Shown here one piece after another: positions 49,567 through 61,168 of a stretch of 64,000 nucleotides of DNA; within the stretch, counting starts at the first letter, position 1, and every line of letters starts with the position of its first letter. The stretch comes from Ignavibacteriales bacterium (GTDB lineage Bacteria; Bacteroidota; Ignavibacteria; UBA10030; SZUA-254), in NCBI GenBank assembly GCA_016214905.1, contig JACRMQ010000006.1:124001-188000 (forward strand), read 5' to 3'. The notes beneath the pieces were generated by a model, which was not told the origin of the DNA, ran no database searches, and saw only the letters and a program-made list of their open reading frames with translations. The position numbers and the translations under genes are program-made.

Positions 49567-49671
49567 GTACAATTACAAGTAGCACCTATAGAACTACGCT
49601 GGAATAAGTCATGACATATAAAAACTACGTTCAATACTTTTGTTCAAATAAAAAATAAAAGGAGAATATTT

Positions 49672-51063
49672 ATGAATAGATTTATAAGAATATTTACTTT
49701 AGTACTTGTTCTATGTTTCCAAGTTTCGGCAGGAGAACAGATTGCGCCCGTCTCACCAAAGAAAGAAAATATACCTTCACAGGTAACAGTCGCTTGGGCG
49801 AAGCGGGCACTCCAAGGATTTGACATGAAGGTATGGATAAGTAACCAAATGGTGCTGGGTCTTCAAGCGTGGGATGGAACCACACCGGACGGATTCGGGT
49901 TGGAATATCCAACCGGCTCTGGAATTGAACACCTCTATGGTGCCGGTCCATGGATTGGTGCTATGATTGATGGTGTTGCAAGGGTAACCGAAGGTTATAA
50001 TGGTTATGATGCAAGAAAGGAAATACTTCCTCAGCAAGGTGACTCTATCCTCTCAACATCCCAGAAATCGGATAAAGATTTCTACTGTTCTGCAACAGAC
50101 ACATTCCATACACCGGTAATATCCGGTCACATTCCAATGGGAGTGAAAGTATCTCAAAATTCTTATGCCTGGCAACCGGGAATGTATACCAATGCTTTTG
50201 TAATTCAAGAGTATAATATTCAAAACATAGGAAATAAGATTTGGCAAAATGCTGTTGCAGGTTTTATGGCAGATATGGATATTGGACCGGTTAGCGTTGG
50301 GAATTTTTCTTCAAATAATTATGCTGCATTCGATGCAGCAACAAAGACAGCATACATGCACAATGCTATCGATCGGGGCTCTACACCACTCGGTGTTACT
50401 TTCCTGGGTACATCAATACCGCTTGATTCAGTACGTTTGGTCTTTAGGTGGTGGGACTTTACAACACATCAGGGACCGGGCACAAATGATTCAGCCCTCC
50501 ACGCATGGATTTCCTGCGAAGGTGGAGTTCCATGCTTAGATTCCAATCAATCACCGTCAGTGCCGAGCGACGGGCGCGTTTACCTTGGGATAAGCGGAGT
50601 GACAATGCAACCTGGTGATTCAATAAAATTGTATTATGCAATCGTCTCAGGGAATACGATCCAGGAGATGTTGGACAACGCTAATCGTGCTCAGGATGTC
50701 TATAATTCAACTTTCGTTACGGGAGTAAATGATTACACTGAGAATATGCCGCAAGGGTTTCTATTGCATCAGAATTATCCTAATCCATTCAACCCGAGCA
50801 CAACGATAAGCTACCAACTGCCAGCCCGAAGTCATGTAACACTCAGAGTTTTTGATCTGCTTGGGAGAGAAGTTGCGATGCTGGTGAATCGTATCGAAGA
50901 ATCAGGAAATAAATCGGTGACGTTTGATGCGAGCAGGTTATTAAGTGGTGTTTATTACTACCGTCTACAAGCCCGCCCAACAGATGGCGGGGAAGCCCGC
51001 CAAAAAGATGGCGGGCAAGCAGGCAACTTCACATCCGTGAAAAAATTATTGCTGCTTAAGTAA
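49672..51063 (+). CDS. Secreted protein with T9SS sorting domain carrying a duplicated 8-aa insert
   Basis: A 463-aa exported protein: signal peptide IFTLVLVLCFQVSA, an unrecognised beta-rich body (~residues 25-370) with motifs QEYNIQNIGN and WWDFTTHQGPG, and a T9SS C-terminal domain (NYPNPFNPSTTISYQLP). The sorting domain is interrupted between YYYRLQA and GNFTSVKKLLLLK by 16 residues, RPTDGGEA plus RQKDGGQA, encoded by two palindromic 24-bp units. AAAGGAG precedes the ATG. Function of the body unknown; it resembles other surface proteins with TGNxxQ-type bodies only loosely. Confidence 0.82.
   Translation: MNRFIRIFTLVLVLCFQVSAGEQIAPVSPKKENIPSQVTVAWAKRALQGFDMKVWISNQMVLGLQAWDGTTPDGFGLEYPTGSGIEHLYGAGPWIGAMIDGVARVTEGYNGYDARKEILPQQGDSILSTSQKSDKDFYCSATDTFHTPVISGHIPMGVKVSQNSYAWQPGMYTNAFVIQEYNIQNIGNKIWQNAVAGFMADMDIGPVSVGNFSSNNYAAFDAATKTAYMHNAIDRGSTPLGVTFLGTSIPLDSVRLVFRWWDFTTHQGPGTNDSALHAWISCEGGVPCLDSNQSPSVPSDGRVYLGISGVTMQPGDSIKLYYAIVSGNTIQEMLDNANRAQDVYNSTFVTGVNDYTENMPQGFLLHQNYPNPFNPSTTISYQLPARSHVTLRVFDLLGREVAMLVNRIEESGNKSVTFDASRLLSGVYYYRLQARPTDGGEARQKDGGQAGNFTSVKKLLLLK
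50974..51021 (+). repeat. Two tandem 24-bp palindromic units inserted in-frame in a T9SS domain
   Basis: Compared with the homologous end of the 47323 gene (junction after nt 49524), 48 extra bases encode RPTDGGEA and RQKDGGQA. The first has GCCCGCC (50971-50977) and GGCGGG (50986-50991); the second GCCCGCC (50995-51001) and GGCGGGC (51010-51016). The frame is kept and both reads are free of stops. Confidence 0.85.
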
Positions 51064-51097
51064 ACGCAAAGTAAATAGAAAACATTTTGTTTAAAAG

Positions 51098-51122
51098 TGC
51101 AGTCTACAAGCGGACTGCAGAT
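51098..51122 (+). terminator. Hairpin after the T9SS gene at 49672
   Basis: TGCAGTC (51098-51104) / GACTGCA (51113-51119), 8-nt loop. The surrounding 3' sequence is nearly identical to that after the next gene (52261-52320). No strong T-run. Confidence 0.45.
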
Positions 51123-51285
51123 TATTAATGACTGGAGAGATTGATAACCGAATAGGATAGAGTCAAGAGTTCGAAACTATGGATATTAAGATATTTTGAT
51201 CTAATGATAATCAAATTATTTATTGATGAACAAAGACAAAATAGCATACAACACAAAATCTATCAATCATCAAGGAGATATGCCT

Positions 51286-52260
51286 ATGAAGCAATTAACA
51301 GTTGTTTTAGTTGTAGTATTTCTTTTTTTTCTCGATTTCAATATCGGAAATAGTCAGGGCACAATTGCGTTTGTGGACAGTTTCAATCAAGGGAATTCAA
51401 ATGAATGGACTTGGCAAACAGGTTCATGGACTTTTGCAGATGGGATCCTTTCAACTGGGACAGTTGCAGGCCACCATTTTCTCATCGAGCCTCAGTATAT
51501 TTTTAGTAATTTTACATTCCAAGTAGATGTGATGAAGATCGACGACGGCGACGCAGAACATCCAGGTTTGGTGTTTCGTTGGATGAACGATACGATGAAC
51601 TACGTTTTCCGCATCAACGGAGTCGGTTCGCAGTCTTGGATCCAGTTGGCCCGTGATATGGATAACCGCGATCATAATTCACAAATTATCAGCACAGTTC
51701 CGTGGTTTACCAACGAGAACAATAATCGAATGTATAAAGGAGTTTGGTACACGATGAAGGTACGCACGGATAGCACACAAATCAAGTGCAAGGTCTGGCG
51801 GACTTCGGATCTGGAACCATCAACCTGGAATCTTGATGTGACCGACAGTCAATATGCACTGGGTAAAATTGGTTTGGAGTATTACACGGGTTCTCACCAA
51901 TATGATAACGTTGTTGTAATCGGAGAAGGTAATCTGGTAAATGATGTGTCTGAGGAGATTCACCCAAGCCCTGTGACCTTTGCTCTTGCACAAAATTATC
52001 CTAATCCATTCAACCCGAGCACAACAATCAGCTATCAATTGCCGACGCGAAGCCACGTAACGCTCAGGGTCTTTGATCTGCTTGGAAGGGAAGTTGCGAT
52101 GCTGGTGAATCGTATCGAGGAATCAGGAGATAGGTCGGTGACGTTTGATGCGAGCAGATTATTAAGTGGTGTTTATTACTACCGTCTACAAGCCCGCCCA
52201 ACAGATGGCGGGCAGGCAGGCAACTTCACATCTGTGAAAAAATTATTGCTGCTTAAGTAA
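51286..52260 (+). CDS. Secreted LamG/DUF1080-like domain protein with T9SS sorting domain carrying one 8-aa insert
   Basis: About 324 aa. AAGGAG lies 8 bp before the ATG at 51286; a longer frame from 51223 adds 21 residues before the signal peptide (LTVVLVVVFLFFLDF). Residues ~25-215 look like a concanavalin/LamG-type jelly roll: SFNQGNSNEWTWQTGSWTF, FQVDVMKIDDGDAEHPGLVF, WYTMKVRTDSTQIKCKVW and KIGLEYYTGSHQYDNV, a carbohydrate-binding style fold. The C-terminal T9SS domain matches its two neighbours and carries the insert RPTDGGQA. Likely a surface glycan-binding protein. Confidence 0.83.
   Translation: MKQLTVVLVVVFLFFLDFNIGNSQGTIAFVDSFNQGNSNEWTWQTGSWTFADGILSTGTVAGHHFLIEPQYIFSNFTFQVDVMKIDDGDAEHPGLVFRWMNDTMNYVFRINGVGSQSWIQLARDMDNRDHNSQIISTVPWFTNENNNRMYKGVWYTMKVRTDSTQIKCKVWRTSDLEPSTWNLDVTDSQYALGKIGLEYYTGSHQYDNVVVIGEGNLVNDVSEEIHPSPVTFALAQNYPNPFNPSTTISYQLPTRSHVTLRVFDLLGREVAMLVNRIEESGDRSVTFDASRLLSGVYYYRLQARPTDGGQAGNFTSVKKLLLLK
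52195..52218 (+). repeat. Single 24-bp palindromic unit inserted in-frame in a T9SS domain
   Basis: Encodes RPTDGGQA at exactly the same codon junction (after the Ala of YYYRLQA) as the insert in the preceding gene. GCCCGCC (52192-52198) and GGCGGGC (52207-52213) form the palindrome arms. Confidence 0.85.
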
Positions 52261-52291
52261 ACGCAAAGTAAATAAAAAACATTTTGTTTAG

Positions 52292-52322
52292 AAGTGCAGT
52301 TCATAACGACTGCACTTTATTT
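52292..52322 (+). terminator. Terminator after the T9SS gene at 51286
   Basis: AAGTGCAGT (52292-52300) / ACTGCACTT (52309-52317), 9-bp stem, 8-nt loop, followed by TATTTATT. Confidence 0.7.
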
Positions 52323-52326
52323 ATTC

Positions 52327-52478
52327 TAGAGTCCTTTCTGAGGAAAGCCTGCCTGCCGCAGGCAGGGACTCTACATTGATAACAATGAGTAGAGTCCGTT
52401 CCTTCGAACGGACTACACGGATAACAAAGCGTAGAGTCCGTTCTCCCAAAGGTATTCCTACTGAACTTAGAACGGACT
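52327..52478. repeat. Cluster of hairpins built on a repeated AGAGTCCGTTC element
   Basis: This is part of an 844-bp stretch (52261-53104) without a recognised gene. An outer stem TAGAGTCC (52327-52334) / GGACTCTA (52366-52373) encloses a CTTTC/GAAAG hairpin and a CCTGCC/GGCAGG hairpin. Two further hairpins share an arm: AGTCCGTTC (52393-52401) / GAACGGACT (52406-52414) and AGTCCGTTCT (52435-52444) / AGAACGGACT (52469-52478). The repeated gtagagtccgttc wording suggests copies of one dispersed palindromic element. Confidence 0.75.
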
Positions 52479-52510
52479 TCTAGCTTAACAATTCGAAATA
52501 TCAAACCGCC

Positions 52511-52888
52511 ACTCCGTTTGGTACTGCGACAACTCCGTTCGACATTGCGACGATTCCGTTCGACATTGCTGCAACTCCGTTCGGTATTGCGATAACTCCG
52601 TTAGACATTGGGGCGATCCCTTTAGACATTGCGATAACTTCGTTAGACATTGGGACGATTCCTTTAGACATTGTGGTAACTCCGTTAGACATTGGGACGA
52701 TTCCTTTAGACATTGCGATAACTTCGTTAGACATTGGGACGATCCCTTTAGACATTGCGGTAACTCCGTTAGACATTGGGGCGATCCCTTTAGACATTGC
52801 GGTAACTCCGTTAGACATTGGGACGATTCCTTTAGACATTACGGCAACTCCGTTAGACATTGGGGCAATCCCTTTAGACATTACGGCA
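52511..52888. repeat. Eighteen-unit 21-bp tandem repeat array, open on both strands
   Basis: Eighteen contiguous 21-bp units alternate between two types: ccgttagacattggggcgatc and cctttagacattgcggtaact, so the higher-order period is 42 bp. On the plus strand every unit reads as a heptapeptide such as TPLDIGT or IPLDIAV; on the minus strand as MSNGVTA or MSKGIVP-type heptapeptides. Unit number 21 is a multiple of 3 and the units hold no stop in either of these frames, which explains the opposing open frames (52501-53052 minus, 183 aa; plus frame to 52948). The left five units are more divergent (ttcgacatt or ttcggtatt in place of ttagacatt). There are no unique spacers. I cannot tell whether it is translated. 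Confidence 0.85.
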
Positions 52889-53104
52889 ACTGCTAACAGG
52901 ATTGCGACGATCCGACATAGGATTATGCCCAAATTGACTTGTTTTTGAGGGTGGCAATGTGGATATGGATGTTTTGATAGTGAATAGGAGGTTGTGCGGA
53001 TTAAAATAATTTGAATAAGAAATGTATAAAAACACATCATTAATATACACATCTTTGATTGTTTTTTTGTTAGAATTTAACGATATTTTCTAACAGAGGA
53101 ATGC

Positions 53105-53785
53105 ATGCCAACAACTAAAGATATATTGCTTCAGATTCTCGAAGAATCATCAATTCAACATACATCGTTTGGGAAAACACAGCTTGTAAAATTACTCTAC
53201 CTCACCGAAGTCGAATATTACAGAAATTACAACGAACGTTTGACCGATCTCGAGTGGCTTTTTTATCATTATGGTCCGTACGCTCTTGCAATAGATGACA
53301 TTCTAAATGAAAGAGATTTTGTTCAGACAAAGGCGAAAATTAAGAATGAAAAGAACTTAATTCTAATTAAAGTTGCTGAAGGGTTAAGTCGGTATAAATC
53401 TGAAGTTGACACCAAAGTTAGTTTGATTATTAAAAAGATCGTTGGGCAGTGGAAAGATAGACTTCTTGAGGATCTGCTGGACTATGTATATTTTGAAACA
53501 GAACCGATGGAAGCGGTAGATAAGCGGGGGGATGTATTAGATTTCACAACAATAAAAAAGGAAACTAATAAGGTTGTAATTCCACTAAAAGCTTCGAAAG
53601 AAACTGAACAAAGAGTTGCGGAGTTGAGGAAGCGAATTGCCCCGACACTCAAAAGACTTAGTGAACAAAGGGTAACAGAAAAACACGAGGGTAAGGAATA
53701 CCAGAAAGCTATTGAAGCATGGGATGAAGAGGAACAGGTTGATGCGGAATCGTTACGACATCTAAAGATAATAATCAAACCATAA
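53105..53785 (+). CDS. Panacea-domain (SocA/DUF4065) antitoxin-like protein
   Basis: A 226-aa protein with an N-terminal Panacea fold: FGKTQLVKLLYLTEVEYYR, then LTDLEWLFYHYGPYALAIDDIL and, further on, YFETEPMEAVDKRGDVLDF. These are the hallmarks of Panacea-domain proteins, which act as antitoxins or chaperone-like neutralisers for diverse toxins. The C-terminal ~60 residues are charged and helical. AGAGGA precedes the ATG. The next gene, 40 bp downstream, encodes a PemK-like protein and is the natural toxin candidate. Confidence 0.82.
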   Translation: MPTTKDILLQILEESSIQHTSFGKTQLVKLLYLTEVEYYRNYNERLTDLEWLFYHYGPYALAIDDILNERDFVQTKAKIKNEKNLILIKVAEGLSRYKSEVDTKVSLIIKKIVGQWKDRLLEDLLDYVYFETEPMEAVDKRGDVLDFTTIKKETNKVVIPLKASKETEQRVAELRKRIAPTLKRLSEQRVTEKHEGKEYQKAIEAWDEEEQVDAESLRHLKIIIKP

Positions 53786-53825
53786 AACAACTCTGACACG
53801 CAAAGGGATTGACATATCGGGACTT

Positions 53826-54482
53826 GTGGAAACTTGCTTTGAAGCTGGACCAACCGCAGGGTTCTCTGTTGGTCAAATTGTGGAAATACCATCATTATAT
53901 CCAAATAAAGATAAGCTGATTCTTGATGTTAATGTATTAGAAGATCCAAGCGAAGTTGAACTGCCAGCTATGATTAGCCAACTTGATAAACGGCAATTCA
54001 AGTTCCCGGTGAAAAGCATCGGTTTGAAAGCAGACGAACATTTGTTTGCAATCAAAGGTAAAATGCGTCCTGCAATTGTTATTGCGGAAGGACCAACCCG
54101 TTGGGCAACTAATACATCCGAGCAATTAATCATATGTGTACCGCTTTACACAGTTGATAAACCTAAAATTCATAGAGAGTTTGTTATAAATGTTCAAGCT
54201 TTTCAATATCCGAGTAAATTTTATATTCCCCCATTCCCGATGTTTCATATAGAGGAAAGCATTGCACGTTTTGAGTTGATTCAAATAGCACATGCATTTG
54301 CAGTAAAAATATTTCCAGCCAAAACAAACCCGGCAATGCTGTCTGATGAATTCTTCAGTCTTTTTAGGATTTGGCTCGTGTCATATCTTGGTGGAACAAT
54401 TGATGAAGAAGAAATTGAAATTTTAAAGTTATATGGAAATGATATTTTGAATGAAGCTAAAAGACAAGGAGTAGCTATTTAA
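53826..54482 (+). CDS. PemK/MazF-like putative toxin
   Basis: A 218-aa protein from GTG at 53826. The central part resembles the PemK/MazF SH3-like barrel: GKMRPAIVIAEG (RPxxV strand) and LIICVPLYTVDKP, followed by an aromatic-rich loop (PSKFYIPPFPMFHIEES). It is larger than MazF (~110 aa), with extra N- and C-terminal segments. The frame stays open upstream to 53775 and reads LTRKGIDISGLVETCF without an ATG, GTG or TTG, so the true start may use ATT or the 5' end may have decayed. Family members usually cleave RNA; activity here is inferred. It lies 5 bp before the methyltransferase remnant. Confidence 0.65.
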   Translation: METCFEAGPTAGFSVGQIVEIPSLYPNKDKLILDVNVLEDPSEVELPAMISQLDKRQFKFPVKSIGLKADEHLFAIKGKMRPAIVIAEGPTRWATNTSEQLIICVPLYTVDKPKIHREFVINVQAFQYPSKFYIPPFPMFHIEESIARFELIQIAHAFAVKIFPAKTNPAMLSDEFFSLFRIWLVSYLGGTIDEEEIEILKLYGNDILNEAKRQGVAI

Positions 54483-54487
54483 AATTT

Positions 54488-54676
54488 ATGCCCTCACTAA
54501 ACTGGATTGGTAAAAAAGTCGTAGAGAATCATCACCGGCACGTGTCGTTTCATTTGCTTAAAGATGTTCCTGAATTATCTGTCGGTGATTCGGGAAGCGG
54601 CAACCTGATTGTTGAAGGTGATAATTTACTCGCCTTGAAAATGCTGAATATTTTATGCAAACTTATACTTAATTAA
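54488..54676 (+). pseudogene. Truncated 5' end of a site-specific DNA methyltransferase (type III Mod-like)
   Basis: Sixty-two codons starting MPSLNWIGKKVVENHHRHVS and continuing GNLIVEGDNLLALKM match the N-terminus of adenine-specific DNA methyltransferases whose next segment should be a ~LLPRYAGKVKCIYIDPPY catalytic region. Instead the frame reads LNILCKLILN and stops, 16 bp before the DUF4011-helicase gene. No remainder of the enzyme is seen downstream. The break is at about nt 54646. Probably a deletion or replacement scar left when the large neighbour arrived. Confidence 0.75.
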
Positions 54677-54691
54677 GTTCGCTCAATCATC

Positions 54692-57600
54692 ATGGATATA
54701 CAAGTACAAATAGAATTTGCAAGAAAGAATCTTCTTGACCTTACGATGAGGAATCGCCTTCTCAATTTCAGGCCCACAAAGGCGAGGTCCATTAGGGCTA
54801 TAAACGAAATTCCCCGTGAAGTTTATGACCTTCTCGTACTTCAAGAAAGGATGATGGAATTCCAACCACAGAAACAACGCGACAACATTTCTGAGAATGG
54901 TTCAAGCGAATCGTTGTTTGGTGAAAAGGAAAAAAATGGATCATCGGATGAGGGGCTTACCGAGCTCTGGCATTTACCAATTACCACGACTGAAGTAGCA
55001 GACCGCCATCTTGATCGTTATCTACAAACCGATTTGGACTCCGAGGGATTGCAAAAAAGATTATTCTACATCAGCCAACAGGCACGATCTGTTTTTGAGG
55101 AACAAGGGTATACCGTATTGTTCTTGGCTCTTGGTTTCTTAGAATGGAAAGAGTCTCCTGATGCAATTGAAATGAGAAGAGCTCCCCTCATACTTGTTCC
55201 AGTCGAACTTGAAAGAACGGATGTTAGGAAATCTTACCGACTGAAATGGAATGAGGAAGATATTTATTCAAACATTTCGTTGAGTGCAAAGCTTGTAGAA
55301 CAAGGAATTATTTTACCATTCTTTGAAATGCCTGAAGGAAAGACCGATATAGATCAATACTTTGTAGCAGTCTCCAATGCTATTTCAACTATGGCCGACT
55401 GGAAAGTGGTGAATGAGATTTGTCTTGATTTCTTTAGTTTCACAAAATTTGTGATGTATAAGGATCTAGATTCGAAGTCTTGGCCTACAGAAGAATCACT
55501 TACTCAGCATCCTCTCATCAAGGCGATTCTTTCTCCTTCAGGAGATGTGACCCATAGGGTCGGGTTCAATGTGGAAGAGGTAGATCAGAAAATACAATGG
55601 AAAACCACTTACCATATTCTCGATGCTGATCCCTATCAAATTGCTGTTATTGAAGACGTTAAAGCCGGTCATAATCTTGTTGTTGAAGGACCCCCTGGAA
55701 CTGGCAAATCCCAAACAATTGCAAACGCCATTGCTGAGCTACTTGCAAATGGCAAGACTGTCTTGTTTGTCAGTGAGAAAATGGCCGCGCTTGAAGTTGT
55801 GAAGAGCCGATTAGATCATGCCGGATTGGGGGAATTTTGTCTGGAGCTACATAGCCGTAAGGCCAATAAGAGGGAGGTGCTTAAAGAACTAGAAAGAACT
55901 CTCCAAGTTGGTACGACTCATACCGGCGATCAAGGAATGGACTTTCAATTACATGAAGATCTCAAGAACAAGTTGAATGGATATGCTCATGCTCTAGGGG
56001 AGCCGATCGGCAATATCCAACTCTCGCCATTCGCTCTATACCAAATGAAGGAGAAGAGCCTAAGACATTTCAAGCATTCAGGGATGACAATACCTAGAGC
56101 CAAGATTTCTTCGCCAGAGAAATGTACCATTGAGGAATGGTCATTAGCCCAAACTCGTTTGAACGACTTAGCATCTTCTTACTCTCTTGTTAAGCCAGTC
56201 TCAAAAAATGTATGGCGAGGGTGTAACCCTCCGATTATCCTGCCATCTGATGAATATGAAATTGGTAATCTGATTGAGAAATGTATTGTAGGATTAAATA
56301 AACTTGCCTCTGTTGCGCAAGAGTTTTCAGAAAAGAGCGGTATCAGAAGACCTGGTTGCCTTGGTGATATCCAAGATGTTGTTTCAAATTCCATCATAGT
56401 AGCTTCTGCACCGAAAATAGAACGCATAATTCTTGAAAACCGTGAGTGGGATTCATTAAAAGAGCAAGCACAGTCAATTATCAACGATCTACAGGAATTC
56501 CAGAAACAATGGGCTATAGCACTATCCTGTTTCAAGGAAAATTCGTTAGATCATGATCTTCAATCGTTGCTACATGATTATAAGATTGAATCAAAGCACA
56601 TATTCAGATTTATCAATAAAAAGTATTGGTACTTAAAACGTGAAATTGCGGGATTATGCGAATGTCGACCTTTCAAAAAACGGCAACAGATAATCGAGCA
56701 TCTCGAGCAACTGATTATAGTACAACACCTCCAGACTCGAGTTGCCTCTCATGAAATAACAGCACGTAAGCTATTTGGTTCTCTATGGAAAGGTAGACAA
56801 ACAAATACTGAAACTCTATCTACATTCGCAGATTGGATCGTCGGTTTCCGTGCATCCTTAAATGCAGGGACAGCAACAACTAATGCTCTGTCCATTATTG
56901 AAAAAGGAGTTAACAGGCTTGAGATAGAAAAAGTATACAAACTTCTTTTGGATTCAGTTATTGATCTGGAAGTTCAATTAGACAACCTAAAGACACGCAT
57001 CGGATTGAATTATTTGTTGGCATTTTCAAATGAGCGAGACAATATACAGTTCGGAATACTCAAATCCCGTCTAACAGAATTGTCAAGGAACACGCATACA
57101 CTACACACATGGTCTCAGTTCATGCGTTATAGGAATGCGTGCATTGAAACAGTTGCAGCCTCTGCTGTGCCACTTGTGGATTCAGATTCGATTATGCCTG
57201 ATAGTTTGGTTTCTTGTTTTGAAGGAAATTTTGCTGATGATCTTCTACGATTTGCTTTTGATCAAAAATCTGATCTTGCTGATTTCATTGGAAAATTACA
57301 TGAGCAAAACATCAAGCGCTTTTCGGAAGTTGACCAATTGCTTATAACTACGAATCGAAAGCGTCTCGTTAGCAAGCTTCAGAAGAATAAACCAATTGTA
57401 TATGGTGGTGCCAGAGGTTCAGAGGTTGGAGTGCTTCTTGGAGAGTTTAGTCGAAAGCGTAGCCATATGCCAATCCGCAAGCTTATGATTAGGAGTGGAA
57501 CTCTAATTCAAAAACTGAAACCTTGTTTTATGATGAGTCCACTTTCTATTGCTCAATTTCTTGATCCGCGAACAGTACAGTTTGATGTTATTATTTTTGA

Positions 57601-59476
57601 TGAAGCAAGCCAGGTAAAACCAGAGGATGCGCTCGGCGCCTTGCTTCGTGGGGGACAGCTTATTGTCATGGGAGATACAAGGCAACTTCCACCTACGAAC
57701 TTCTTCAGCCACCTAATCGGTGAGGGTACAGAGGAAGAAGAGACCGAAGAAGCAACGGTAGCAGATGTAGAGAGTATCCTTCATCAATGTAAAAGAGCTT
57801 TCCCAATGAAGTCCTTGAATTGGCACTATCGTAGCCGGCATGAATCACTAATTGCTGTCTCCAACCGAGAATTCTACGATAATTCTCTCCTTATATTTCC
57901 TTCGTCGATTGGTAAGGATGATGATCTTGGGTTACATTTTGTGCATTTACCAAATGGAGTCTATGATCGCGGAAAGAGTGGTGTCAACCGAATTGAGGCA
58001 AGGTCTGTAGCTGAGGCGGCTGTCCACCACTTCAAAAAACATCCAACAAAGAGTTTGGGAATCGGCACCTTTAATATTAAACAACAGCAAGCCATACAGG
58101 AAGAAGTAGAATTGCAACTTCGTCATAATCCTGAGATGGAAGAGTATTTTAGAAGTGGACGAGATGAACATTTCTTTGTGAAAAATCTTGAAACGATTCA
58201 AGGCGATGAGCGGGATGTTATTTTTATAAGTGTAGGTTTCGGTTTTGATGAAGTGCGAAAGTTATCACAAAACTTTGGACCATTGAATCATGATGGTGGC
58301 CACCGCAGGCTAAATGTTCTTACAACACGTGCACGAGAGAAGTGTGTGGTTTTTTCCAATTTCAAGGCGTCAGATCTAAACATTGAGGTAGATACACCGT
58401 TTGGTGTCAGAGCACTGAAATCATTCTTAGCATTTGCTGAGAATCGCAAAATAATTGGCACTCAGGGACCATCTGCGGACACCGATTCACCTTTCGAGGA
58501 CTCTGTGTTTGAATTCCTCACAAGTAAAGGATACATTGTTAGCAAGCAGGTAGGCTGTGCATCGTTCAGAATTGATCTAGCCGTTGTTGACAGGAAGAAT
58601 CTAGGACGGTACATACTCGGTATTGAGTGCGACGGCGCCAAATATCACTCCTCGACAGTTGCTCGGGATCGTGATAGATTAAGGCAACAAGTGCTTGAGG
58701 GCCTCGGTTGGAAAATCCATCGAATTTGGTCAACGGATTGGTATCGCAACCGAATTGAGGTTCAAGATCGTCTGATAGCCGTTGTCAGGGAAGCTGCTAA
58801 TGAACTGGATAGTTCAGGAGTGATTAAGAAAGGACAGACAAGCAATTCAGAGATCGAACCAATTGTGGTAATATCGCCAAATAGCACATATCGAAATTTT
58901 TCAATTCCTAATATTGAAGAACTTGCGACTCCTTATCAGGTTTGCCAGTCGTTAGGGATTCAGATAGGTGGGGATCTGCACAAACAATCAGCTAGATACT
59001 TGGCAAATGCAGTTGTTAATGTTGTAATAGTTGAAGCACCGGTACATTTTGATGAGGTAGTTCGCCGTATTCGAATGCTGTGGGGTTTAGGCCGGGCTGG
59101 TCAACGTATCAATTCCATTGTCAAAGATGCTACGAAGCACGCTGTAAATGCTGGTTTGATAAAATTGAAGAACGGGTTCTTATGGTCATCTAAAGAACAA
59201 AATCCTGTTTTAGTACGAAGGAGGATCGATGATCCTTTGCCTCGTATTGAGTTAATATGTAATGAAGAAATAGCAGAAGCAATCAGGGTAGTGTTACGCC
59301 ATCAATTTTCCACAAACAGCGGTGAGGTTGTCACACAAGTCGCTCACTTGTTCGGAATTCAATCAATTCATGATAAGACAGCGGAACGAATAGAATACAT
59401 ATTGAAAGATCTCATGATGAATAATGAAGTGGAATATGTTTCCGACGGAATCGTTCGACTAGCAGTGGGAAAATAA
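54692..59476 (+). CDS. DUF4011-helicase-Vsr/MTES_1575 nuclease-DUF3320 protein (Hhe-like defence protein)
   Basis: A 1594-aa protein. Order: DUF4011-type N-terminus (EFARKNLLDLTMRNRLLNF), a superfamily 1 helicase split into two parts with Walker A GPPGTGKS at 333-340 and Walker B IIFDEASQ at ~968-975, then helicase motifs such as MGDTRQLPPTNFF, LNWHYRSRHESLI, ETIQGDERDVIF and RLNVLTTRARE. A Vsr-like restriction-endonuclease fold follows (~1265-1345) with FEDSVFEFL, FRIDLAVVD, IECDGAKYHSS (Glu1312) and RDRDRLRQQVLEGLGW, and a C-terminal DUF3320 region. The architecture matches the Hhe anti-phage protein described by Gao and colleagues (2020). Between the helicase halves lies a ~500-residue helical insert. 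No good RBS precedes the ATG. Stand-alone systems of this kind need no partner. Confidence 0.88.
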   Translation: MDIQVQIEFARKNLLDLTMRNRLLNFRPTKARSIRAINEIPREVYDLLVLQERMMEFQPQKQRDNISENGSSESLFGEKEKNGSSDEGLTELWHLPITTTEVADRHLDRYLQTDLDSEGLQKRLFYISQQARSVFEEQGYTVLFLALGFLEWKESPDAIEMRRAPLILVPVELERTDVRKSYRLKWNEEDIYSNISLSAKLVEQGIILPFFEMPEGKTDIDQYFVAVSNAISTMADWKVVNEICLDFFSFTKFVMYKDLDSKSWPTEESLTQHPLIKAILSPSGDVTHRVGFNVEEVDQKIQWKTTYHILDADPYQIAVIEDVKAGHNLVVEGPPGTGKSQTIANAIAELLANGKTVLFVSEKMAALEVVKSRLDHAGLGEFCLELHSRKANKREVLKELERTLQVGTTHTGDQGMDFQLHEDLKNKLNGYAHALGEPIGNIQLSPFALYQMKEKSLRHFKHSGMTIPRAKISSPEKCTIEEWSLAQTRLNDLASSYSLVKPVSKNVWRGCNPPIILPSDEYEIGNLIEKCIVGLNKLASVAQEFSEKSGIRRPGCLGDIQDVVSNSIIVASAPKIERIILENREWDSLKEQAQSIINDLQEFQKQWAIALSCFKENSLDHDLQSLLHDYKIESKHIFRFINKKYWYLKREIAGLCECRPFKKRQQIIEHLEQLIIVQHLQTRVASHEITARKLFGSLWKGRQTNTETLSTFADWIVGFRASLNAGTATTNALSIIEKGVNRLEIEKVYKLLLDSVIDLEVQLDNLKTRIGLNYLLAFSNERDNIQFGILKSRLTELSRNTHTLHTWSQFMRYRNACIETVAASAVPLVDSDSIMPDSLVSCFEGNFADDLLRFAFDQKSDLADFIGKLHEQNIKRFSEVDQLLITTNRKRLVSKLQKNKPIVYGGARGSEVGVLLGEFSRKRSHMPIRKLMIRSGTLIQKLKPCFMMSPLSIAQFLDPRTVQFDVIIFDEASQVKPEDALGALLRGGQLIVMGDTRQLPPTNFFSHLIGEGTEEEETEEATVADVESILHQCKRAFPMKSLNWHYRSRHESLIAVSNREFYDNSLLIFPSSIGKDDDLGLHFVHLPNGVYDRGKSGVNRIEARSVAEAAVHHFKKHPTKSLGIGTFNIKQQQAIQEEVELQLRHNPEMEEYFRSGRDEHFFVKNLETIQGDERDVIFISVGFGFDEVRKLSQNFGPLNHDGGHRRLNVLTTRAREKCVVFSNFKASDLNIEVDTPFGVRALKSFLAFAENRKIIGTQGPSADTDSPFEDSVFEFLTSKGYIVSKQVGCASFRIDLAVVDRKNLGRYILGIECDGAKYHSSTVARDRDRLRQQVLEGLGWKIHRIWSTDWYRNRIEVQDRLIAVVREAANELDSSGVIKKGQTSNSEIEPIVVISPNSTYRNFSIPNIEELATPYQVCQSLGIQIGGDLHKQSARYLANAVVNVVIVEAPVHFDEVVRRIRMLWGLGRAGQRINSIVKDATKHAVNAGLIKLKNGFLWSSKEQNPVLVRRRIDDPLPRIELICNEEIAEAIRVVLRHQFSTNSGEVVTQVAHLFGIQSIHDKTAERIEYILKDLMMNNEVEYVSDGIVRLAVGK

Positions 59477-59572
59477 GTTAATTGGAATATCTTTTGTGAA
59501 CAATTAAAGATATGTCACTTCTTTTTACCTATGATGAAGGATACACGATATACATCAGAGTTCAATCCAATC

Positions 59573-61168
59573 TTACGATCTAATCTGCTTCCACCAATTG
59601 TTCACCACATCAGGAACGCTGGTGTCGGCTTCTTTCTTTAACCATTTATTGAAGAACTTTATATCACCGCTTGCAGGTGCCGGGGAGGGCATATCAATTT
59701 GTACACGCGCTGGTATTGCAACCGCGTCGCCAATAATAAATGCTTCACCCTGTCCTAAGGTTGGCAGTACATCTATTAAACTTGCCAGCGCGTCGGGAAC
59801 AAGCTTGCGGACGTAATTCTGATCGTTCGGATTCAACAAACGCAACGCTATGAAATTATTGCACTGTGCCGTTATTGTTTCGGAAATTTCGGAAGGTCTC
59901 TGACTTACAATCATGCAACTGACGCCGTATTTTCTTCCTTCCTTCGAGATGCGCTCAACCGTTTTACGCGCGGCAACACTGCGCCCCTGCGAAGATAAAT
60001 ATGTATGCGCTTCTTCGAACACAATCAGCACAGGGAAGTTTTGTCGGTTTTGATTCCACAAATTGAAATCGAAAATAATCCTGCCTAATAACGATACGAG
60101 AACATTGATGACATCGAAAGGCACTCGGCTTAAATCTAAAACTGTAACCTGTTTGTTGTTCACAATTCCGAATAGCTGTGTGAGCAACTCTGAAAAAGTT
60201 TCAGACGATCTGTATTTTTTAGGTTTGAATAAGAATTCGTAACGCTTATCCTGAATTTTACTTTCAAGACGGACGAGGAAACGGGTGAACTGACCGTAGA
60301 AAGGACCTTCTTTGCCGCCTAAAGTTCTTTCGGTATCCAGCGAGCGCATTCTCGCCGAAACTTCGAGGAAATCGAAATATACAGGCGTATCTATTGTTAA
60401 AAATTCTTTCAGGTTGAGATTCTTACCGCGCTTCGAATCGAGTACGGCATCTTTCATAATCATCATCTGATTGTGCGAATGAGGATCGTCTTCATCGATG
60501 AATGTTTCGCACAGTTCATCGAAATTCATCAGCCAGTATGGAAGCTCAAGCTCGGTTATCTTGATGATGTTGCCCTGATCTTTGAAGGCAGGTTCATACT
60601 CGCCGTGAAGATCGAGAAGAATGACGTGCGCATTTTCGAACTTATGGATTTTCTGGATGATGGAGGCGGTTGTGCACGATTTACCGGAGCCGGTGGAGCC
60701 GAAGAGAGCTATATGTTTAGCGAAAAATTTATTCGGTTCGAGAAAAAATCTTTCTTCGTCCATGATCGAAAGAGAACCAACCGAGAAGTTGCTATGCCGA
60801 TAGGTGGCAAAAATGCTTTTTAAATCTTCAGAAGCGGCAAGATAAACAGGAGAGCCGAGAACGGGGAATGACGAAACTCCGCGTGTGAATCTGCCGTCGG
60901 TTAGAGTGCCGATTAACTGGATTTCTATAATTTTCTTTGCCGGCTTGAGTGACAGCTTGTCGTCTGCCGCCGATAGATCGTGGTAACGTGTCGACGATAT
61001 TGTACCGATAATAGATCGATCGCCGCTCGGGATCATGACGTATGAACCCAGTTTGCCTATTACATCGCTTGGTGAAGCTGCAGAAGCTACATCATCTGCG
61101 AATACGGCGGTTATGTTTCCGCTCGTAACAGTTGCAACATTTGCGATTCGTTTTAGTTGTGTGCTCAT
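59573..61168 (-). CDS. HerA-like (DUF87) ATPase
   Basis: A 531-aa protein with an N-terminal HAS-barrel-like beta region (residues ~1-115) and a FtsK/HerA-type motor: Walker A GSTGSGKS (157-164), Walker B LIVFEEAHTYL (~residues 382-392), a sensor SRQP-type text IVSQRPSEISETI, and the C-terminal QGEAFIIGD strand. HerA proteins translocate DNA with NurA in repair or join Sir2, DUF4297 or other effectors in defence. No NurA or effector gene is next to it here. GGAAGGAG precedes the ATG; it is 21 bp after the SpoIIE-type phosphatase gene and converges on the Hhe-like gene. Confidence 0.85.
   Translation of the reverse strand: MSTQLKRIANVATVTSGNITAVFADDVASAASPSDVIGKLGSYVMIPSGDRSIIGTISSTRYHDLSAADDKLSLKPAKKIIEIQLIGTLTDGRFTRGVSSFPVLGSPVYLAASEDLKSIFATYRHSNFSVGSLSIMDEERFFLEPNKFFAKHIALFGSTGSGKSCTTASIIQKIHKFENAHVILLDLHGEYEPAFKDQGNIIKITELELPYWLMNFDELCETFIDEDDPHSHNQMMIMKDAVLDSKRGKNLNLKEFLTIDTPVYFDFLEVSARMRSLDTERTLGGKEGPFYGQFTRFLVRLESKIQDKRYEFLFKPKKYRSSETFSELLTQLFGIVNNKQVTVLDLSRVPFDVINVLVSLLGRIIFDFNLWNQNRQNFPVLIVFEEAHTYLSSQGRSVAARKTVERISKEGRKYGVSCMIVSQRPSEISETITAQCNNFIALRLLNPNDQNYVRKLVPDALASLIDVLPTLGQGEAFIIGDAVAIPARVQIDMPSPAPASGDIKFFNKWLKKEADTSVPDVVNNWWKQIRS

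Follow-up and report, generated by a model that had tools for sequence, protein, structure and literature searches.

Direct repeats set at about two helical turns are known from the iterons of plasmid origins or centromeres. A Bacteroidota element of similar architecture is BrickBuilt of Porphyromonas gingivalis, a minisatellite/MITE that has a 23-bp unit, is dispersed in 19 element copies and has associated promoter activity (PMC4596501). A further comparison is with chromosomal integrons and with CALINs, clusters of attC sites without an integrase (PMC9024848); complete integrons have been reported from Chlorobi and Ignavibacteriae. In this study, a 21-bp tandem array in a 64,000-nucleotide stretch of an Ignavibacteriales genome (the window) was compared with these systems and with its own relatives. 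The array is probably a noncoding minisatellite and belongs, as a single copy, to an intergenic element that is dispersed and specific to the genus, consisting of start units, a 21-bp array and a conserved tail, which in most copies is followed by a promoter-leader module (P) heading variable accessory-gene clusters, some of them integron-type cassettes.

By analogy, BrickBuilt is the closest known kind. Both are dispersed intergenic elements of Bacteroidota with an internal tandem array of units of about 20 bp, nonrepeated 'leader' and 'tail' flanks and variable copy number; in both, the unit has a conserved and a nonconserved half, the distribution is restricted to a genus or species, and the element copies are of similar order in number (19 versus about six here). 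As in the BrickBuilt type, the intergenic copies found here are dispersed and have a tandem array between flanks that they share, and the promoter activity associated with BrickBuilt would have its counterpart in the promoter-like P. However, the unit is 21 rather than 23 bp long, the unit type varies here from locus to locus, and most copies precede a shared promoter-leader module tied to integron-like cassettes. Furthermore, inspection of the flanks by eye did not establish IS5-like terminal inverted repeats or target duplications, the ends of the element not being fixed. The array shares with iterons the spacing of about two helical turns, but it is chromosomal and dispersed, its units are locus-specific and it has no identified partner of the Rep or ParB type. 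As in integrons and CALINs, attC-like sites are present at five related loci and P precedes an integron-like recombinase; unlike in these systems, the recombinase has no IntI insertion and attC-like sites are absent from the window copy.

The tandem array that had been proposed at this position is genuine, with a period of 21 bp and 18.1 copies (TRF; Table 1) and with periodicity beyond chance (15 unit matches versus 2.75 expected). A 42-bp higher-order period was recovered over 7.3 copies, and the clean alternation of two unit types sets in near position 52586. The core had been described as invariant, which it is not: TTAGACATT is present in 14 units, and the initial units instead carry TTCGACATT or TTCGGTATT. 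When the units are set in register with the conserved tail, the repeats extend to position 52922, and the last of them, TTGCGACGATCCGACATAGGA, is family-wide; in the window copy, the tail has diverged over its second half. A CRISPR array was considered and rejected, as the units follow one another head to tail without spacers and the nearby genes that were scanned gave no cas match. A separate tandem repeat with a 63-bp period and 7.1 copies, probably coding, occupies positions 1-450 of the window.

Table 1. Coordinates of the array, its surroundings and related features; positions without a locus prefix are those of the window.
Feature	Position	Strand	Basis
21-bp tandem array, 18 units	52511..52891	+ (strand of the family's tail)	TRF; unit list in register
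Clean 42-bp alternation block, TTGSGACGATYCCTTTAGACA / TTGCGRTAACTYCGTTAGACA	52586..52891	+	TRF 42-bp, 92% matches
Family-wide terminal unit (52902-52922) and first part of conserved tail (GGATTATGCCCAAA..GACTTGTTTTTGAGGG)	52902..52951	+	
Unrelated dispersed inverted repeats (GTAGAGTCCGTTC..GAACGGACT; GCCTGCCTGCCGCAGGCAGG) preceding the array	52324..52480	.	Sequence; partial matches elsewhere
Reverse ORF, 183 aa, MSNGV/MSKGI heptads, judged spurious	52501..53052	-	
Forward ORF, 91 aa, TPLDIGT/IPLDIAV heptads, judged spurious	52673..52948	+	
SocA/Panacea-domain gene	53105		
DUF4011/Hhe/PDC-S37-like helicase	54692		
Accessory block with array, ∼10 kb, missing from between its flanking genes in G011 (sister species)	49567..59554	.	
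Leader after P, examples	L027:7570-7750; L106:3252-3461	-	
Integron-like tyrosine recombinase with attC-like cassettes downstream	L030:7722-8648; G011:C12:54487-55308		Both species
Unrelated 21-bp-period arrays, G003	L125:7618-7873; L126:16779-17082; L160:11773-11948; L162:1-377; L164:13305-13593; L166:16415-16904		
Unrelated 21-bp-period arrays, other genomes	L171:3197-3576 (G065); L114:253-439 (G247)		

The original prediction also placed the array immediately upstream of a toxin-antitoxin and defence gene set. This is correct as to position, but the link looks incidental, since most relatives of the array lead into the shared promoter module P and varied accessory genes. The array belongs to an accessory block that contains two sorting-domain proteins, the array itself, the SocA/Panacea gene, an unknown gene and the DUF4011/Hhe-like helicase; in the sister species, which does not have this block, the 753-aa gene is followed directly by a 3' fragment of HerA. 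The 3' end of HerA recurs as extra fragments in the sister species (window 59554-59677; L191:127-249; L192:2052-2115), as if this were an insertion hotspot. The window copy of the element looks partial, comprising the array and half of the tail without P, and it may therefore do nothing there; as it has neither P nor an attC-like site, the window locus is uninformative on the supposed regulatory role.

A sequence model of three units (R2) detected six arrays in the genome of the window (G000) and six in a sister MAG of the same genus (G011); in 13 other genomes of the same family, its matches did not rise above noise. The best match of the model in genome G003 (E = 0.005) was rejected, not being an array of the dispersed 21-bp family. 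Further 21-bp arrays in the own genome end in one tail, GATCCGACATAGGATTATGCCCAAAACGACTTGTTTTTG...CCCCTCAAAAACAAGCAAAATA, of ∼90 bp, which aligns over 12 loci, and the arrays of the family often begin with the same start sequence. Among 245 genomes of the class (a sample into which the sister MAG was not drawn), a model of the tail gave strong matches only in the own genome and noise elsewhere, and GTDB contigs yielded the tail solely from the sister MAG 'Chlorobiaceae bacterium SW.3.66'. An origin in a mobile replicon was rejected, as searches of phages and plasmids gave no match and viral contigs did not contain the tail. The element family is restricted to the genus and intergenic, with a fixed orientation and a shared tail.

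In the register set by the tail, each unit consists of a half-conserved core of ∼10 nt (TTGCGACRAT) and an array-specific second half, typically CCGTTCGCAG, GCAATATAGGA, CAGAACTGAA, CAATATTGAA, CATACATGAA or CCTTTAGACA. Positions 1-11 hold most of the variation within arrays, whereas positions 12-21 are nearly fixed within arrays and differ between them (permutation p = 0.0007 for the within-array variation and 0.006 for the contrast with the between-array variation, with units that are not independent). Unit type and number turn over between orthologous loci: at the locus following the gene MPLNDNTN.. (L026/L033), the own genome has nine units of one type and the sister MAG has 28 units of two types. 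In addition, units of the types CAATATTGAA, CCGTTCGCAG and GCAATATAGGA are found again at different, non-orthologous loci of both species. These two observations point to turnover by slippage or unequal exchange together with ectopic exchange, and the earlier suggestion of a recombination substrate is partly supported to this extent.

The module P was identified by walking outward from the array loci. It reads TTGAC-N17-TTTYRTAATTT- and continues into a leader with an inverted repeat, ACTCACGC...GCGTGAGT. P stands directly after the array and tail, on the same strand, in ten of the 12 R2 arrays as well as in the divergent C1 array; the two R2 arrays without it are the window copy and L089, situated at the end of a contig. 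Seven further copies of P were found from similarity to P alone, three with weak 21-bp periodicity upstream and four with none. The array may have a cis-regulatory role on P. Both sides of the leader inverted repeat vary among copies (for example ACTCGCGC/GCGCGAGT in place of the arms given above), suggesting a conserved hairpin.

Downstream of P, 14 attC-like sites were found in 113 kb, compared with five in 720 kb of control strand. They occur at five P loci (L027, L030, L090, L176 and L181), where they follow accessory genes in the direction of P, and six of them that were folded gave z values of -3.5 to -6.3. Each of the two genomes has one P immediately ahead of an integron-like tyrosine recombinase. 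These two recombinases, of C1 and C12, are closest to VchIntI but do not have the stretch at about 178-240 (VchIntI positions), i.e. the IntI-specific insertion, and they score below the cut-off of the NCBIfam model TIGR02249. To our knowledge, integrons have not been described as including a 21-bp array ahead of the promoter, and our literature search returned nothing direct on 21-bp arrays or on arrays before integron promoters. It is conceivable, if rather improbable, that this genus captures cassettes in an integron-like manner from numerous dispersed platforms, each made up of an array, a tail, a promoter, a leader and an insertion site and all served by one integrase without the IntI insertion; the locus-specific array would then be a working cis part that controls the cassette promoter or recombination, and the 21-bp-period arrays of unrelated sequence in the class would share this role.

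The original prediction emphasized that the array is open on both strands, and indeed a single frame in each direction runs through the array without a stop, with the heptapeptides that had been quoted. This openness is nevertheless unremarkable. When the 21 columns were permuted identically in every unit and open frames were counted out of six, the controls had a mean of 1.66 open frames compared with the two observed (P = 0.55), 55% of permutations reaching at least the observed number. Since the same codons recur in each unit of a tandem array, a frame without stops in one unit will usually have none in the others. The 24 arrays taken together have 64 open frames against 48.6 expected, an excess that stems partly from a small number of GC-rich arrays in a different genus. 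A translated protein of variable heptapeptide repeats on the reverse strand (starting GIILCRIVAI.. and continuing in MSNGV/MSKGI heptads) is accordingly very unlikely. The reverse frame anchored on the tail stays open across nearly every unit of the g1 arrays, and over ten related arrays it scores as the most conservative of the six frames (codon-similarity test, summed z = 2.4, not independent), so that a weak coding constraint is conceivable; however, the preference is too weak to claim coding, and the window array by itself gave z = 0.6-0.9. In three relatives (L021, L024 and L014), the frame is interrupted by stops at one shared position of the tail, L024 has a further stop near its far end and others have stops just upstream of the tail, while the shared DNA stays conserved across these stops. 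Nonsynonymous changes are frequent, codon-level conservation is not clear, relatives have no common start codon in the tail-anchored frame, and Pfam gave no match. The gene open in both directions is thus removed as a false lead, and a dispersed element family is put in its place. A structured RNA or cruciform formed by the array, which had also been suggested, is just as improbable. Single units do resemble small hairpins (GGGacgatCCC; CGGtaactCCG versus CGAtaactTCG), and the arrays at L027, L087, L160 and L114 fold better than column-permuted controls, but most arrays fold at the level of these controls. On either strand, the window array is less stable than its controls (z = +1.1 and +1.4), its hairpin signal being removed by the column-permutation control. 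No consensus structure of the tail was supported, and Rfam searches of the array loci tested gave no match in the arrays, and elsewhere only a tRNA and spurious matches.

A minisatellite that is purely neutral, and only by coincidence part of a repeated intergenic segment, would account for the free turnover of copy number and unit sequence, for a window copy without the downstream module and for open frames at the random level. We nevertheless regard this as unlikely, though less so than any other alternative, because the 21-bp period is also found in arrays of unrelated sequence, orientation and position before P are fixed at most loci, the tail is retained and variation is uneven along the unit. 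The same regularities could be read as those of a phased, iteron-like array in which the 21-bp spacing presents bound protein on one face of the DNA, with the array-specific half as the site and the core as the spacer, or the reverse, and in which the protein acts on promoter activity, looping or recombination. The period of exactly 21 bp in all arrays, including the unrelated arrays of other genera, the near fixation of positions 12-21 and the confinement of within-array variation mainly to positions 1-11, and the fixed orientation upstream of P are consistent with such binding. However, the putative protein has no candidate, array-specific halves would demand many specificities, the core is common to the arrays as well as the other half, and the unit type changes at orthologous loci, so that this reading is improbable. 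The dispersed minisatellite element is preferred. Its units would multiply by slippage or unequal exchange, and ectopic exchange would swap them from one dispersed array to another. The 21-bp period may be kept as two turns of the helix or through in-register pairing of copies, and the downstream promoter may be tuned or insulated by the array. Accessory-gene clusters have copies of the element at their front. Should the array indeed affect the promoter or recombination, changes in copy number would be a simple and fast switch on accessory genes, and the constancy of the 21-bp period in unrelated arrays of several genera would become a testable question.

In stretches sampled from other genera of the family and class, arrays of unrelated sequence were observed with an exact period of 21 bp (or 42 or 63 bp). 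In genome G003, three of the six 21-bp arrays adjoin genes for proteins of ∼205 aa (L164:13859-14485, L166:15624-16247 and L125:7984-8598); the proteins at L164 and L166 are alike at their ends, and that at L125 is less so.
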